A stretch of 21,789 bases of DNA from a virus, in IMG/VR virus record IMGVR_UViG_3300034106_000633, positions 1 to 21,789 of that record; one strand, 5' to 3'. Positions 7,595 to 19,709 of this stretch are shown here, in pieces. Under the pieces are notes generated by a model. It searched no databases. It was not told the DNA's origin and saw nothing but the letters and a program-made list of their open reading frames with translations. A program made the translations under genes and the position numbers. How positions within the stretch are numbered: the first letter of the stretch is position 1; each line of letters begins with the position of its first letter.

Positions 7595-7795
7595 TTATCC
7601 GTTTTGTCGTACTATCGTGCGTACTCCGTCTATTTCTGTAATCGTTACGTTTTGTGGCGTTACACTGGCTGTTTTGCCTATCCCTTGCGCTTGTAAACTT
7701 CCGTCGCAACATTCCTTAGAGTATTTTCCGTCTTTACATAAACAACCCCTTTTGCCACCTCGTGGGCTAACTTTACTTAGTGTTTTTTCTGCCAT
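7595..7795 (-). CDS. Small Cys-rich conserved phage protein
   Basis: The protein has 66 residues. Its core is SPRGGKRGCLCKDGKYSKEC followed by CDGSLQAQGIG, with four Cys in a CxC...CC arrangement and many basic residues. I recognise this RGCLCKD-x-YS-x-CCDG pattern as a recurrent small protein in head modules of Bacteroidota phages. The Cys set could bind a metal ion. The start codon lies one base after the protease stop, so translation is probably coupled. Its exact role is unknown. Confidence 0.7.
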   Translation of the reverse strand: MAEKTLSKVSPRGGKRGCLCKDGKYSKECCDGSLQAQGIGKTASVTPQNVTITEIDGVRTIVRQNG

Positions 7796-7796
7796 G

Positions 7797-8702
7797 TTAT
7801 TTGTTTCTGATTTGTTCTAACTTTCTCTGAGCCCATTCAACTCCAGCGTCACCACCCCATGCAAGCCACATTAAACGACCGCAACCGTCACCTAATTCCT
7901 TTTGTGAACTTTGTCTATGTCGCTCAAAACTTGCCATTCGTGAAATTGTATCTTCGCTTATATTTTCACCGTTTGCTAATTGGTTTGCTCGTGCTTTTCC
8001 TACAGGCGTACCACAATCACCCCATCCGTTTTCTTCAGCATAACGTAAAGCTATCTTAGCGTTTTCGCTTGCCTCTTTTGGATAGTCGTTGTAAGTTTCT
8101 AAATTGTAGTTTTCGTCTTTTAGTATTAAATCACGAATAGCTTTTATTAACCTATCATCTTCGGTTTCTTGTAAACTCATTTCATATTTGTCTACAAAGT
8201 AACCCTCAATGCTGAATCCTTTTACTTCACCAGCTTTTACCTTGTTCCAAATCTCATCGTTATTTACTTTCATTGAAATCATCCAAGTTCCTTTCGGTAA
8301 ATTGAATCCGTATTTTGCTGACTTGTCTTGTTTCTCATCTTCAATAATCCAGCTTTCAACAACACTCATACCGTCTAACATTTTCTTTTCATGTTCTAAC
8401 GTTGCGTTGTTTTGGTTGGCTCTCATTAAGAATAACTCAGATGCTTTGCGTACTGTTTCCTCACTAAAATAAATATAGAACTCTTTGTCTCCGTTTTTAC
8501 GGTAAATCTGTTTATTAGGAACTAAAGCTGCGCCCATTAAGATACGTTTTTCACCGTCAACTTCTTTAAGTTCTACTTCGTGTTTTTTTAAGGCTACAAA
8601 ATTCTCTTCGATTGCAGGACTTTCAACTACTGAAACCGCATTGATACCGCTTTCGATTTTATTCTCATCAATTAGCAGTTCTATAATTTCCATCTTTGCC
8701 AT
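7797..8702 (-). CDS. XkdF-like prohead protease with conserved C-terminal domain
   Basis: The protein has 301 residues. Residues about 1-175 match the XkdF/Peptidase_S78_2 pattern, with NAVSVVESPAIEENFVAL, then GAALVPNKQIYRKNG. TLEHEKKMLDG carries the likely catalytic His104, and VKAGEVKGFSIEGYF carries the likely nucleophile Ser164. These enzymes cleave scaffold and capsid N termini during prohead maturation. Residues about 205-301 form a second domain (DYPKEASENAKIALRYAEEN, GTPVGKARANQLANGE, TISRMASFERHRQ, GCGRLMWLAWGGDAGVEWAQ). I know this domain as a frequent companion of phage proteases and related head proteins; its function is unclear. The gene opens the head module after the tape measure. 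Confidence 0.85.
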   Translation of the reverse strand: MAKMEIIELLIDENKIESGINAVSVVESPAIEENFVALKKHEVELKEVDGEKRILMGAALVPNKQIYRKNGDKEFYIYFSEETVRKASELFLMRANQNNATLEHEKKMLDGMSVVESWIIEDEKQDKSAKYGFNLPKGTWMISMKVNNDEIWNKVKAGEVKGFSIEGYFVDKYEMSLQETEDDRLIKAIRDLILKDENYNLETYNDYPKEASENAKIALRYAEENGWGDCGTPVGKARANQLANGENISEDTISRMASFERHRQSSQKELGDGCGRLMWLAWGGDAGVEWAQRKLEQIRNK

Positions 8703-16135: not shown

Positions 16136-17296
16136 TTAATGAATAAAATACTGACCATAATGTGGATTAACTCCCAACACTTCCATTTCGTGGTAACGTG
16201 CTGCGTCAATGCTGTGGTTGTTGAAGTCAATAGGCTTGTTTAAACGAACGCCAGTTTTATCAGTGTCCCAAATGTAGCCACGTAATTCTTTGATTAGATT
16301 CGTGCTGTTTGACGTTACTAAGTATTCTTGGCTTTGCATTATTTGAATACCAAAGTTTATTGAGTCCTTGCCTTTTGTTACTCCTTTTATCGTCTTTCCG
16401 TACCGTCTAATCTCTTCTATTGACTTAGGCTCGGAACTATCCGCATATATTGGAACGTTATCAGGAAGTATTTTAGCAATATCGCTGTTTATCATTCCTG
16501 TACGGTAAACAAGTTCGTTTAATATTCTTTGACCATTCCATGTATAAACCTCAACTGCTGAGGTGGGGTCATTCGTGTATCCAAAGTCAAGTCCAATTCC
16601 TATCAATCTCGCATCACTTGGAATACTATCAATTTGTTTCCAGTTGCTGAATATAACGCCCTCAAGCATTCCGATTTCGCCTAAGCCGTAAACACGCCAC
16701 CAATTACTCCAATACGTGCTTGTTGACGCTTTTTCTCGGTTCTTTTCTATTTGGTCAATAATTGACTTGTCAAGAGCTTCGTTATCCTTGTAGGTAAGAA
16801 TTATAAAGTCTGCGTCTGGTTCGTCTTTTAGTTCGGTATGCACCCAAAATTCATTAGCTGGGTTAAAGTCTAAAAATACTTCTTTTTTAGTCCGTATAGC
16901 AAGTTCATTATAAGATTCAAAGGTAACATTATTGCATTCGTTAATATAAAGAATATCACGGCGAGCACCACGTAACTTAGAGCTATCGTCCGCACTAAAA
17001 AATTCAAAAACACTTCCATTTTTAAAGTTATAGGTTAATAAAGATTTGTTGAATTGTTCATCGTTAAAGCGATTAGTCCATTTAAGTATTTTAAGAAAGT
17101 CTTTTAACGCTCCCCTACGTAAATGTGGTATAGATTCAGCTACTACGCTAATTTCTAAGTTAGGTTGTTGTATTGCTTTGTTTATTAAAACTGCTAAAAT
17201 AGAATACGTTTTCGAAGCTGCCGTACCTCCTTGTATTATTTTAGTTCGTCTTTTTAAAGCAAGAACCTTATTCGTTGCTGTCGTTCTCTTGAACAT
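16136..17296 (-). CDS. terL: Terminase large subunit
   Basis: The protein has 386 residues. The ATPase part has a Walker A-like motif GGTAASKT at 23-30 and a Walker B-like motif DILYINEC at 114-121, where Asn119-Glu120 takes the place of the usual Asp-Glu. The nuclease part shows the three acidic positions expected of an RNase H-like fold: Asp237 in IGLDFGYTNDP, Asp286 in PIYADSSEP and Asp364 in HSIDAARYH. It matches the Terminase_3/6 group, which packages DNA into proheads and cuts the concatemer. It is somewhat shorter than the common 420-450 residues. The start overlaps the small subunit gene by 29 bases. Confidence 0.93.
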   Translation of the reverse strand: MFKRTTATNKVLALKRRTKIIQGGTAASKTYSILAVLINKAIQQPNLEISVVAESIPHLRRGALKDFLKILKWTNRFNDEQFNKSLLTYNFKNGSVFEFFSADDSSKLRGARRDILYINECNNVTFESYNELAIRTKKEVFLDFNPANEFWVHTELKDEPDADFIILTYKDNEALDKSIIDQIEKNREKASTSTYWSNWWRVYGLGEIGMLEGVIFSNWKQIDSIPSDARLIGIGLDFGYTNDPTSAVEVYTWNGQRILNELVYRTGMINSDIAKILPDNVPIYADSSEPKSIEEIRRYGKTIKGVTKGKDSINFGIQIMQSQEYLVTSNSTNLIKELRGYIWDTDKTGVRLNKPIDFNNHSIDAARYHEMEVLGVNPHYGQYFIH

Positions 17297-17600
17297 CTGG
17301 AAATAATGGCTGTTCTAATATTGTTTGTTCTATTTGTTGTAATGGCGCACCATAACCGCTATCCATTAGTGCCTTATATGCTGCTACATCGCCTTCGCGT
17401 GCTTTTTTAATTAGCGCCAAAGTCATTAAATCTTCTTGCGACATTGTTTCTTCAGCACCCGTTAAAGGGTTTTTAAGCTTTTGATTTACCTCCAGCCAAT
17501 ACTTTGCTATTGTGCTTCTATTCTTTGCGCCTTTTGGTCTTCCGTTAGGGTTTCCGCTTTCGCCTTTTTGCCAACGTGGTTCTATATCTTTATTTGCCAT
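17268..17600 (-). CDS. terS: Terminase small subunit-like protein (DUF5681-type N terminus)
   Basis: The protein has 110 residues. Its N terminus has WQKGESGNPNGRPKGAKNRS, the DUF5681 signature of proteins that precede terminase genes. The middle (DLMTLALIKKAREGDVAAYK, then ALMDSGYGAP) resembles the helical oligomerisation part of small terminases, followed by an acidic tail. Such proteins recognise the packaging site and recruit the large subunit. The basic N terminus is likely to bind DNA. The gene overlaps terL by 29 bases, so translation is probably coupled. The cloverleaf region at 17630-17701 lies just upstream and could belong to its leader. Confidence 0.8.
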   Translation of the reverse strand: MANKDIEPRWQKGESGNPNGRPKGAKNRSTIAKYWLEVNQKLKNPLTGAEETMSQEDLMTLALIKKAREGDVAAYKALMDSGYGAPLQQIEQTILEQPLFPDVQENDSNE

Positions 17601-17629: not shown

Positions 17630-17701
17630 AGCGTCGGGGTGGTATCGCACCCCTTCTTTAATCTGGAATGATTAACGCATTACTTTTATGCTTCCGACGC
17701 T
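17630..17701 (-). ncRNA. Cloverleaf-like structured element between mom-like and terS genes
   Basis: On the minus strand four perfect stems can form. The outer stem is AGCGTCGG (17701-17694) with CCGACGCT (17637-17630). The second is GCAT (17691-17688) with ATGC (17680-17677). The third is TTAATC (17675-17670) with GATTAA (17663-17658). The fourth is GGTG (17641-17638) with CACC (17651-17648), which lengthens to GGGGTG/CACCCC if the outer stem opens. The order and spacing copy a tRNA, but the anticodon loop has six bases, the T-loop lacks TTC and the D-loop lacks GG. The outer 5' strand lies inside the last codons of the mom-like gene. It may be a decayed tRNA, a leader structure of the terminase operon, or chance. 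Confidence 0.45.
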
Positions 17702-18378
17702 TGTTGTTTTCGTTCTTGTAAAGTTACTTTTTTTCCTTTATACATACCCGCTCCTAATTCATCTATTTTTGAAAAAGGTAATATAGGAACTGTAATTTTA
17801 CATTTTTTATCTATTAAGTAAATGTAGCGGAGTTGATACCCTATTAAAGGTTTTGCACCTTGTTTTTTTGCTTTTCCAGCGCTTAATCCAATTGCCTTAT
17901 AATTTGAATTATTAAGTGTTTTGTCTGCAATTATTTTTCCGTTCCATTCAAGTATTGTTTTATTTTCTTTTACTCCAGTTAAACAAAAACCACTTGCTCT
18001 ATATATTGTACCATCACCACATTGTGTTCCATCTGAATAACTTAATAACCATTTTATATGCGGCGCGTTTTTTTTAATTAATTTAATTGAAATTGAAATG
18101 CATCTACTTTCTGAATTTTTAGGCAAGTAATCATTAAAAGCCATTCTATTTAATTCTAACATTTCATTCCATTTCGTGTTTTCAACAAGTGGTAAAATTT
18201 TTCTTTTATCCATACTTGTACCATAACTTAAAACCCCGTGTAACTGTTCGTCTAAAAAACAGCCAAAATGCAATATAGAATTTGGAACTACCTTACCTGA
18301 ATAGTGGTGTTTCTTTACAAACTCATTAGCAATCTTTGCGGGTATAACCTTAACTATTATTTCCTTTGCTCTGCCCAT
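17686..18378 (-). CDS. mom: Mom-like DNA adenine modification enzyme
   Basis: The protein has 230 residues, close to Mu Mom. Recognisable parts in order are VKKHHYSGKVVPNS (22-34), GVLSYGTSMDKRK (48-60), MLELNRMAFNDYLPKNSESR (73-92), the signature LLSYSDGTQCGDGTIYRASG (111-130) and, near the end, QLRYIYLIDK and ELGAGMYKG. Mu Mom has a GNAT-like fold and adds a carbamoylmethyl group to adenine in phage DNA, protecting it from host restriction. The gene overlaps the ParB-like gene by 22 bases and so is co-translated with it. The exact base modification made here is not shown by sequence. The coding end forms one side of the cloverleaf structure. Confidence 0.87.
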   Translation of the reverse strand: MGRAKEIIVKVIPAKIANEFVKKHHYSGKVVPNSILHFGCFLDEQLHGVLSYGTSMDKRKILPLVENTKWNEMLELNRMAFNDYLPKNSESRCISISIKLIKKNAPHIKWLLSYSDGTQCGDGTIYRASGFCLTGVKENKTILEWNGKIIADKTLNNSNYKAIGLSAGKAKKQGAKPLIGYQLRYIYLIDKKCKITVPILPFSKIDELGAGMYKGKKVTLQERKQQASEA

Positions 18379-18962
18379 TGCATAATAATTAAATAAAGTG
18401 CGTTACCATTCGTGTTTTCGTTACCCATTGTTTCGCAATATTTATACTCTTCAGTTTCTTTAATATCTGCTATTGCGTTTTTAATTTGCTCCGCTTGTTC
18501 ATCTGCTAAAGTAAAAGTCATTTGTTGAAACGGTGCTTTATTTCCATCAGGTAAACTAAATTCAGTTCCTAATTCATCAGCGTTTAAATCAAAACCCGGT
18601 AAGTCTAAACCCCAATTATCTAAACTTTCAACATCCCATTCATTTGCTAAACTATCCCAGTCCCATTCTCCAAAACCAACATTATCTTTAATTAAGAATT
18701 CGTTTTTTTGTTCCTCAGTCCATTCGTCTGCTACTATAATCGGTATTTCTTTTAATCCTATCTCTTTACAGGCTTTTAAACGCATATTACCACCTAAGAC
18801 AACGTATTTACCGTCAACATCTGTAAAAACGATTAGAGGGCGTTTATTTAGCATATCAGGAAATTCTTGGATAGACTTAACTAACTTTTGGAATTTTCCG
18901 TCTTTTATTATTCTTGGATTTTTTGGGTTTGGTTTAACCTCACTTATTTTAACTAACTTCAT
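18357..18962 (-). CDS. ParB-like (ParB/Srx fold) protein
   Basis: The protein has 201 residues. The N-terminal 90 residues match the ParB/sulfiredoxin domain: KISEVKPNPKNPRIIKDGKF with the PNP-NPR motif (11-17), RPLIVFTDVDGKYVVLGGNM with GGNMR (57-61) in place of the common GG-RR, and IPIIVADEWTEEQKNEFLI. EWDWDSLANEWDVESL follows, a stretch common in phage ParB-like proteins next to DNA-modification genes. The C-terminal third looks like a helical tail. Domain members bind nucleotides, and some cut DNA. The partner is the Mom-like gene that overlaps its end. A role in modification or packaging is inferred from that pairing, not proven. Confidence 0.82.
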   Translation of the reverse strand: MKLVKISEVKPNPKNPRIIKDGKFQKLVKSIQEFPDMLNKRPLIVFTDVDGKYVVLGGNMRLKACKEIGLKEIPIIVADEWTEEQKNEFLIKDNVGFGEWDWDSLANEWDVESLDNWGLDLPGFDLNADELGTEFSLPDGNKAPFQQMTFTLADEQAEQIKNAIADIKETEEYKYCETMGNENTNGNALYLIIMQWAEQRK

Positions 18963-19163
18963 TTAATTAGGGTTGTATTTATAACTTTCGTATTCGTCTT
19001 TATCTACCGGGTAAATTTCCATAGCATACAACTTGTAATCTATGAACACACAATAGTTTATTTCTGTTACTTGCATTATTAACCTTAGAGCGTTCCAATC
19101 TGACTTATGTTTATTTGGGTTCATAAATACAATATAGTAATCGCTGGTTAATGTTAGGCTCAA
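18963..19163 (-). CDS. 66-residue protein of unknown function
   Basis: This small frame starts at a TTG (19161-19163) that overlaps the stop of the 54-residue gene as TTGA. It ends directly before the ParB-like ATG (TAAATG). It begins MSLTLTSDYYIVFMNPNKHK and has WNALRLIMQVTEINYCVFID, with aromatic and beta-type patterning. The next possible ATG would start at residue 14, so the TTG is preferred because of the stop-start overlap. I do not recognise a family. It may work with the modification genes that follow. Confidence 0.6.
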   Translation of the reverse strand: MSLTLTSDYYIVFMNPNKHKSDWNALRLIMQVTEINYCVFIDYKLYAMEIYPVDKDEYESYKYNPN

Positions 19164-19324
19164 TTTTCGTTCGTGTTTTTGGATAGATTCTCTTCATAAC
19201 TTGTTGAACAAACTGCTAATCTTTGATCCGTGTTTTCAAACTCATTTACCATTGTGTCATCAGTCATGCAACGTTGAATGAACTCTGACTTTGTTTCGTT
19301 ACTTGTTGGCTTGGGAATCGGCAT
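19160..19324 (-). CDS. 54-residue protein with F-x2-RCM...QR-x-AVC motif
   Basis: A 54-residue frame begins at the ATG at 19322-19324, inside the end of the preceding gene (26-base overlap), and ends at 19160, where it overlaps the next start. It reads MPIPKPTSNETKSEFIQRCM, with TDDTMVNEF, and then QRLAVCSTSYE. I know this motif (PxPK...E-x-DF-x-RCM...EF...QR-x-AVC-x2-W/Y) as a recurrent short stretch in phage head-assembly regions, often beside or inside prohead protease or portal proteins. Here it stands alone, far from the protease gene. The two Cys may bind a metal. It carries one copy each of AAAACACGA and AAAACACGG. Confidence 0.78.
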   Translation of the reverse strand: MPIPKPTSNETKSEFIQRCMTDDTMVNEFENTDQRLAVCSTSYEENLSKNTNEN

Positions 19325-19709
19325 CTTCGTAAGTGTTATAAACTTGTTTTAATTGGTTTACTCTTTCCAAAATACACGATCCACAGCTTGTTGGTTCATT
19401 GCGCACTCCAAACACTCTTGAATGAATTGCAAGTATTGTCTTTTGTTCACTTGGCTTTATTACTTCCGACTTTTTGTCAAACCATTCTTTTAACCAATCG
19501 TACTCAGCTTGTTCTAAACACTTCGCCTTTCTGTAAGGAAACAACTCGTTTAACTTTGCTTTGCGTTCATCGCACCCACAATCTTCACCAAGTAACCATT
19601 TAGCAACCTTTGCTACTCCAGTTACTTCAAGTACCTTTTCAACGGTATCTCCTAATCCTTTACTTTCAGCTGCTAATATCTCAGCTTTTGTTCGTCTTTT
19701 TCTTGCCAT
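19299..19709 (-). CDS. Conserved Cys-containing phage protein, function unknown
   Basis: The protein has 136 residues. A basic N terminus (MARKRRTKAEILAAESKG) is followed by a hydrophobic helix (VEKVLEVTGVAKVAKWLLG), CGCDERKAKLNELFPYRKAK with Cys44, Cys46 and Cys64, and a late CGSC (Cys109, Cys112). The Cys pairs could form a zinc site. I recall the CGCD-RK-KLNELFPYRK wording from flavobacterial phage genes next to terminase operons, with no known role. It starts 4 bases after the sigma-like stop, and its end overlaps the 54-residue gene. Confidence 0.65.
   Translation of the reverse strand: MARKRRTKAEILAAESKGLGDTVEKVLEVTGVAKVAKWLLGEDCGCDERKAKLNELFPYRKAKCLEQAEYDWLKEWFDKKSEVIKPSEQKTILAIHSRVFGVRNEPTSCGSCILERVNQLKQVYNTYEDADSQANK

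Follow-up and report, generated by a model that had tools for sequence, protein, structure and literature searches.

A 54-residue open reading frame in the window (the whole stretch of viral DNA analysed, i.e. the 21,789 nucleotides of IMG/VR record IMGVR_UViG_3300034106_000633) is a real gene under purifying selection, and its product is a free-standing copy of a 46-residue domain, here given our own label RCM, which elsewhere is fused to head-maturation proteases of at least five types, including S78, S49, ClpP, Mu-I and XkdF. The RCM protein is probably an overlooked part of building or loading virus heads. The explanation we favour, with a confidence just short of even, is that it represents a small helical accessory domain on the inside or portal side of the prohead, where it would serve as a docking module. 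The micro-protein, MPIPKPTSNETKSEFIQRCMTDDTMVNEFENTDQRLAVCSTSYEENLSKNTNEN, is encoded on the minus strand from an ATG at 19324 down to 19160, and the following features are found at and around it.

19160..19324, minus strand: RCM micro-protein, 54 aa; the conserved domain covers residues 1-46, with C19 and C39 within it
19299..19324, minus strand: overlap of 26 nt between the RCM start and the end of the CGSC gene
19299..19709, minus strand: upstream neighbour, a Cys-rich (CGSC) protein of 136 aa, kept in the slot
18963..19163, minus strand: downstream neighbour g66, 66 aa, with a TTG start and a 4-nt overlap with the RCM frame; it served as a control
18357..18962, minus strand: ParB-N-like protein in the same cluster as the RCM gene (PF02195, E 1.9e-9)
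17686..18378, minus strand: Mom-like DNA modification protein, same cluster (PF25680, E 1.3e-52), varying among relatives
17268..17600, minus strand: DUF5681 protein adjoining the large terminase (PF18932, E 8.2e-16), presumably with a small-terminase role
16136..17296, minus strand: what we take to be the large terminase, the conserved end of the slot

That the frame is free, overlaps both neighbours and lies about 10 kb from the protease gene was already stated in an initial annotation of this DNA, and these statements hold (overlaps of 26 and 4 nt; protease gene start at 8702, 10.5 kb away), as does its remark that such a copy is easily missed by length cut-offs. A chance open reading frame is ruled out by the open frames in relatives and by the purifying substitution pattern. 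A pattern scan of IMG/VR with the single sequence found a relative encoded in 123 of 177 matches, and the reading frame is open across the matched stretch in 80/80 of the relatives kept (the best 80 of the 123), one of which (L055) ends at a contig end. Stops or frameshifts in relatives, which the annotation had named as evidence against the gene, are absent from all 296 loci collected, these having been admitted via a readable match. For the window gene pN/pS is 0.163 against 25 near relatives, and the median dN/dS for 1,514 pairs of free RCM copies (codons 10-45) is 0.134. The overlap at the start is also a lasting feature, since in 68/94 other free copies the ATG is overlapped over 1-26 nt by an upstream ORF of 90 codons or more (14 nt: 38 copies; 26 nt: 20; 23 nt: 5; 20 nt: 3; 1 nt: 2); such an ORF stops before the ATG in 10/94 and none was found in 16/94.

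Profile scans of IMG/VR gave at least 579, at least 593 and at least 586 confirmed relatives, the best 80 being kept from each, and genome contigs contained three more, one from an isolate (Caldicoprobacter algeriensis, L150) and two from MAGs (Bacteroidetes and Sulfurovum). The 296 loci, window included, reduce to 232 distinct neighbourhoods, and since they are best-scoring matches picked by patterns, the proportions given below are not population frequencies. RCM is free in 95/232 neighbourhoods and joined to a protease in 89/232. The latter are S78 proteases (65), S78-capsid fusions (6), S49 (4), the phrog_976 type (4), the ClpP type (3), Mu-I (2), the L225 type (2, with an S78 match below cut-off), XkdF (1), DUF2213 (1; L152, just below the Pfam cut-off) and the L243 type (1, matched by PHROGs only), where labels derive from Pfam and PHROG scans of representatives and from BLAST of the other carriers to these. 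The folds of S49 and ClpP are not known to be related to that of S78, and the association of RCM with proteases would therefore not stem from one protease lineage. Other partners are a domain named YPxxA (12), a HAD-like domain (11, labelled on inspection of the sequence and after a similar BFVD entry), portals which also hold YPxxA (3; L278, L279 and L280) and MuF (1; L205), while a 2'-5' RNA ligase-like domain also occurs alongside RCM (L234). Tails without a label are found in 16/232 (DUF3140, L188, L226, L227 and L273 types, and three others) and 5/232 are free or truncated. Nearly all labelled carriers are head components or act in the prohead, and the protease and portal carriers (89 and 3 of 232) agree with the initial annotation, which had linked the motif to head-assembly regions and to protease or portal genes joined to it.

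Within the first 80 relatives kept (the best 80 of 123), 54 copies are free and 26 lie within longer proteins, of which 15 carry an S78-type protease region, seven YPxxA and four a HAD-like domain. That any small gene of the window would turn up fused in some relative is ruled out by two controls, g66 and the CLCKDG protein, for which frames above 110 aa were found in 0/80 and 0/80 relatives, compared to 26/80 for RCM. The latter control, a 66-aa CLCKDG...CC protein (7595-7795, minus strand), adjoins the protease gene and has at least 596 relatives in IMG/VR, none of which is fused among the best 80. RCM is N-terminal in 224/232 neighbourhoods, possibly in three more, and C-terminal or internal in five, namely three portals, the S49 protease L245 and the XkdF protein L234. 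The portal fusions are of the lambda type with RCM at the portal C-terminus (3/232), where an internal start codon is possible, and L245 has no Met at the start of the domain. A strict N-terminal tag was rejected, as a core-only scan gave portal, S49 and XkdF cases with RCM C-terminal or internal.

The residues R18, C19, R35 and C39 are invariant in 232/232 neighbourhoods, and as two of the profile-scan patterns demanded RCM but not C39, the invariance of the latter is independent there. Free copies hold exactly two Cys in 94/95 cases and no His in 84/95. An AlphaFold2 model is compact, with three helices (12-21, 23-28 and 32-45) and a mean pLDDT of 87.5. The domain occurs in single copy: 32/32 whole records have one match at E <= 0.1, and in another 20 a single match was found in 19, the remaining record having a second match of 11 residues (E 0.03), taken as chance. 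One clear copy is thus seen in each of 52/52 records, many of which are fragments, copies beyond them being possible. The window protein matches no family in Pfam, PHROGs or NCBIfam, and searches with 19 A1 members (PHROGs, Pfam) and 16 A2 members (PHROGs) gave nothing under E 0.029; phrog_80 may hold some RCM copies, since full-length L150 and L141 align to it starting at residues 16-17. No match was obtained in a PDB sequence search with the protein, nor in a PDB fold search with the model at E <= 0.001 (five rows, best E 6.7; best Z 3.5 in a second look; taken as chance). Structural matches are found in BFVD, with a TM score of 0.75-0.95 over the query, 37-44% identity and a Foldseek probability of 0.97-1.00. 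These belong to uncultured phages, are unnamed or named for the attached protein, and range from short forms of about 44-68 aa and a 'HAD-like' form of 142 aa to 'Prohead protease' (372 aa) and 'XkdF' (483 aa). The entries A0A6J5MP76 (47 aa), A0A6J5NE47 ('Prohead protease', 372 aa) and A0A6J5NSH3 ('XkdF', 483 aa) show the same free and protease-fused forms as RCM, and their RCM part carries no function or domain name.

RCM is found in unnamed metagenomic phage proteins. A tblastn search of 50,697 named phages with the window protein and the domains of four other members yielded nothing credible (best E 0.8), a search by single sequences rather than a profile, which divergent RCM copies may escape. 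The L150 protease is matched by 524 named-phage records, and in the 40 matches listed the alignment starts no earlier than residue 33 and so leaves out most of the RCM domain. In Bacteroidota genomes RCM was found in 1/395, the seed itself. The domain is common in metagenomic phages and absent from the curated libraries searched, and length cut-offs combined with reference bias have probably hidden it. A small head accessory module is a known kind of protein; word searches of the open PMC literature gave no description of the RCM domain, of its spread over unrelated proteases or of its free form.

The gene order in the phage group of the window is sigma-like, CGSC, RCM, g66, ParB-like, (Mom), DUF5681 and TerL. 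A CGSC or sigma homologue is present in 81/95 free neighbourhoods and TerL in four more; the other ten are located elsewhere and few of their neighbours have a label. The annotation described the gene as far from the head genes; it does lie outside the head cluster, but its conserved slot upstream of the ParB-like, (Mom), DUF5681 and TerL genes places it in the packaging region and not as a stray. In an unrelated record (L260) the order is portal, free RCM and MuF, followed by a protease homologue. Among 13 records in which the RCM gene is free, many of them short, S78 was found in none (0/13) and the Pfam portal model in 4/13 (two above cut-off), so that free copies are not merely located beside an S78 protease. 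The Cys-rich 136-aa protein (19299-19709, minus strand) contains DCGC...CGSC motifs, accompanies RCM in most free loci and has only weak PHROG matches, to families without an assigned function. The Mom-like and ParB-N-like genes (17686-18962, minus strand) lie just upstream of the terminase, and the presence of both varies in near relatives.

A relation between the free gene and the protease is suggested by a second domain, YPxxA (also our own label), which in the window forms the tail of a protease without RCM.

7797..8702, minus strand: head-maturation protease of the XkdF type, without an RCM domain (PF14550, E 4.1e-18; phrog_3017)
7797..8108, minus strand: YPxxA domain, C-terminal tail of the protease, about 100 aa (AlphaFold2 mean pLDDT 93.7)

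Some RCM proteins end in this domain as well, and it is found within portals of the marine S78 group. YPxxA was searched for in 32 whole records and the protease in 21 of these, the protease identity to that of the window being 46-99% across the 21-record set. Nine of the records have a free RCM gene, and in 6/9 the protease is YPxxA-tailed (open frames of 296-306 aa); of the others, L200 has YPxxA inside a portal frame of 570 aa, L208 has a tailless protease of 210 aa and YPxxA nowhere in the record, and L096 ends within the protease. The six RCM-YPxxA records each have a single YPxxA, located on the RCM gene, and the protease is tailless (197-227 aa) in 4/4 that reach it. YPxxA is absent from the six RCM-HAD records, where the protease is tailless (197-207 aa) in 5/5 reaching it. 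Judging from these sequences, the tail module has switched between the protease gene and that of RCM among close relatives. As YPxxA trades between both genes, their products would serve the same place, which is probably the prohead, and this exchange makes co-localisation in the prohead directly testable. In the proteins scanned YPxxA itself is matched by no Pfam family, and a PDB fold search with its model gave nothing at E <= 0.001 (best E 1.4 among 43 rows, taken as chance); its carriers outside the window include L051, L068 and L279, and relatives are included in phrog_2859, a family without an assigned function. The HAD-like (FDYDGT) domain replaces YPxxA behind RCM in L077, L153, L121 and L189.

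A docking module fits these findings, as RCM changes carriers, occurs once per record and is almost frozen in sequence. The domain would bind a conserved component of the inner head (portal, scaffold or capsid shell), and this would hold its joined partner, or RCM alone, in the nascent head, the two cysteines forming a helix-helix disulfide or acting as contact residues. Prohead entry, docking, the nature of the partner and the part played by the cysteines are all what we infer here. Consistent with docking are the fusions to several protease types, portal and MuF, the one copy, the YPxxA exchange, the invariant R18, C19, R35 and C39, the compact model, the unfused controls and the free gene between portal and MuF in L260. 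Against it, the window protease has no RCM domain and so can function unlinked to it; a tag for generic entry would be expected on several cargoes per genome, yet one copy is seen; the gene of the window's group lies upstream of the terminase and not in the head cluster; and L208 has a free RCM gene and YPxxA nowhere in its record. The presence of RCM on unrelated protease families points to an undescribed common partner in the prohead. We advance only tentatively, as possible though rather doubtful, the wider proposal that RCM would be a 'head-entry' dock common to tailed phages with unrelated proteases, with one prohead-internal binding surface, a single RCM in each genome and interchangeable partners (at least five protease classes, portal, MuF, YPxxA, a HAD-like domain, or no partner at all), free in the window's group and with its tail module swapped with the protease.

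The main rival, which we consider unlikely, is that RCM is a passenger, i.e. a packaged effector or counter-defence peptide which would reach the head attached to the protease, portal or MuF, to be injected with the DNA, free copies entering alone or acting in the infected cell. Such domains are known to be carried by portal and MuF proteins (PMC5512222, PMC5576092), and fusion to MuF (1/232) or portal (3/232), a feature of injected effector modules, is seen for RCM, as is its association with the 2'-5' RNA ligase-like (L234) and HAD-like domains; the single copy per record points the same way. However, the sequence is almost frozen over distant phages, unlike that of arms-race effectors, and RCM has no apparent enzyme-like site; its model consists of three helices and has no PDB match at E <= 0.001. 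Also, the commonest partner is a protease, and the prohead protease is usually removed from the head. Sequence constancy favours docking, and single copy favours the passenger.

An accessory role in DNA packaging, in which free RCM would help the terminase to dock on the portal or to begin packaging, is suggested by the conserved slot upstream of DUF5681 and TerL and by the fusions to the portal C-terminus; it is improbable, as proteases carry 89/232 copies, no labelled partner is a terminase and the slot includes genes unrelated to packaging. The initial annotation proposed a metal-binding factor acting with the terminase or the Mom modification gene. The two cysteines are indeed invariant (232/232), a Mom-like neighbour is present in the window, and a site shared in a dimer or completed by conserved acidic residues may be envisaged. 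Classical zinc micro-proteins would be expected to have at least 3-4 conserved Cys/His per chain, a number not reached by RCM, and the Cys and His counts of the free copies leave a monomer short of the classical ligands for a single zinc site, so that support for metal binding is lacking and it was rejected as the main reading. The proposed partnership with Mom fares no better, no Mom or ParB homologue being seen at many of the loci where the RCM gene is retained, and the fusions point towards head proteins. This proposal is very improbable.

The docking module preferred here resembles two known systems in part. The capsid targeting sequence of T4 internal proteins is a short module taking varied cargoes into the head (PMC3012670). 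RCM resembles it in having exchangeable partners and is itself mostly N-terminal (224/232), but is a folded domain of 46 residues, sometimes C-terminal or internal and sometimes without cargo. It is found once per record (52/52, many being fragments), where a T4-type sequence would be expected on several cargoes of one phage. MuF/SPP1 gp7 minor head proteins and polyvalent-protein modules are likewise head-associated, portal-linked and equipped with exchangeable domains (PMC5576092, PMC5512222). RCM probably shares these properties but is 46 residues long and has no sequence match to MuF, one copy being itself fused to MuF (L205). Partner domains without a Pfam match are found behind RCM in L273, L275, L253, L227, L226, L188 and their relatives, and these are candidates for further head-associated modules.
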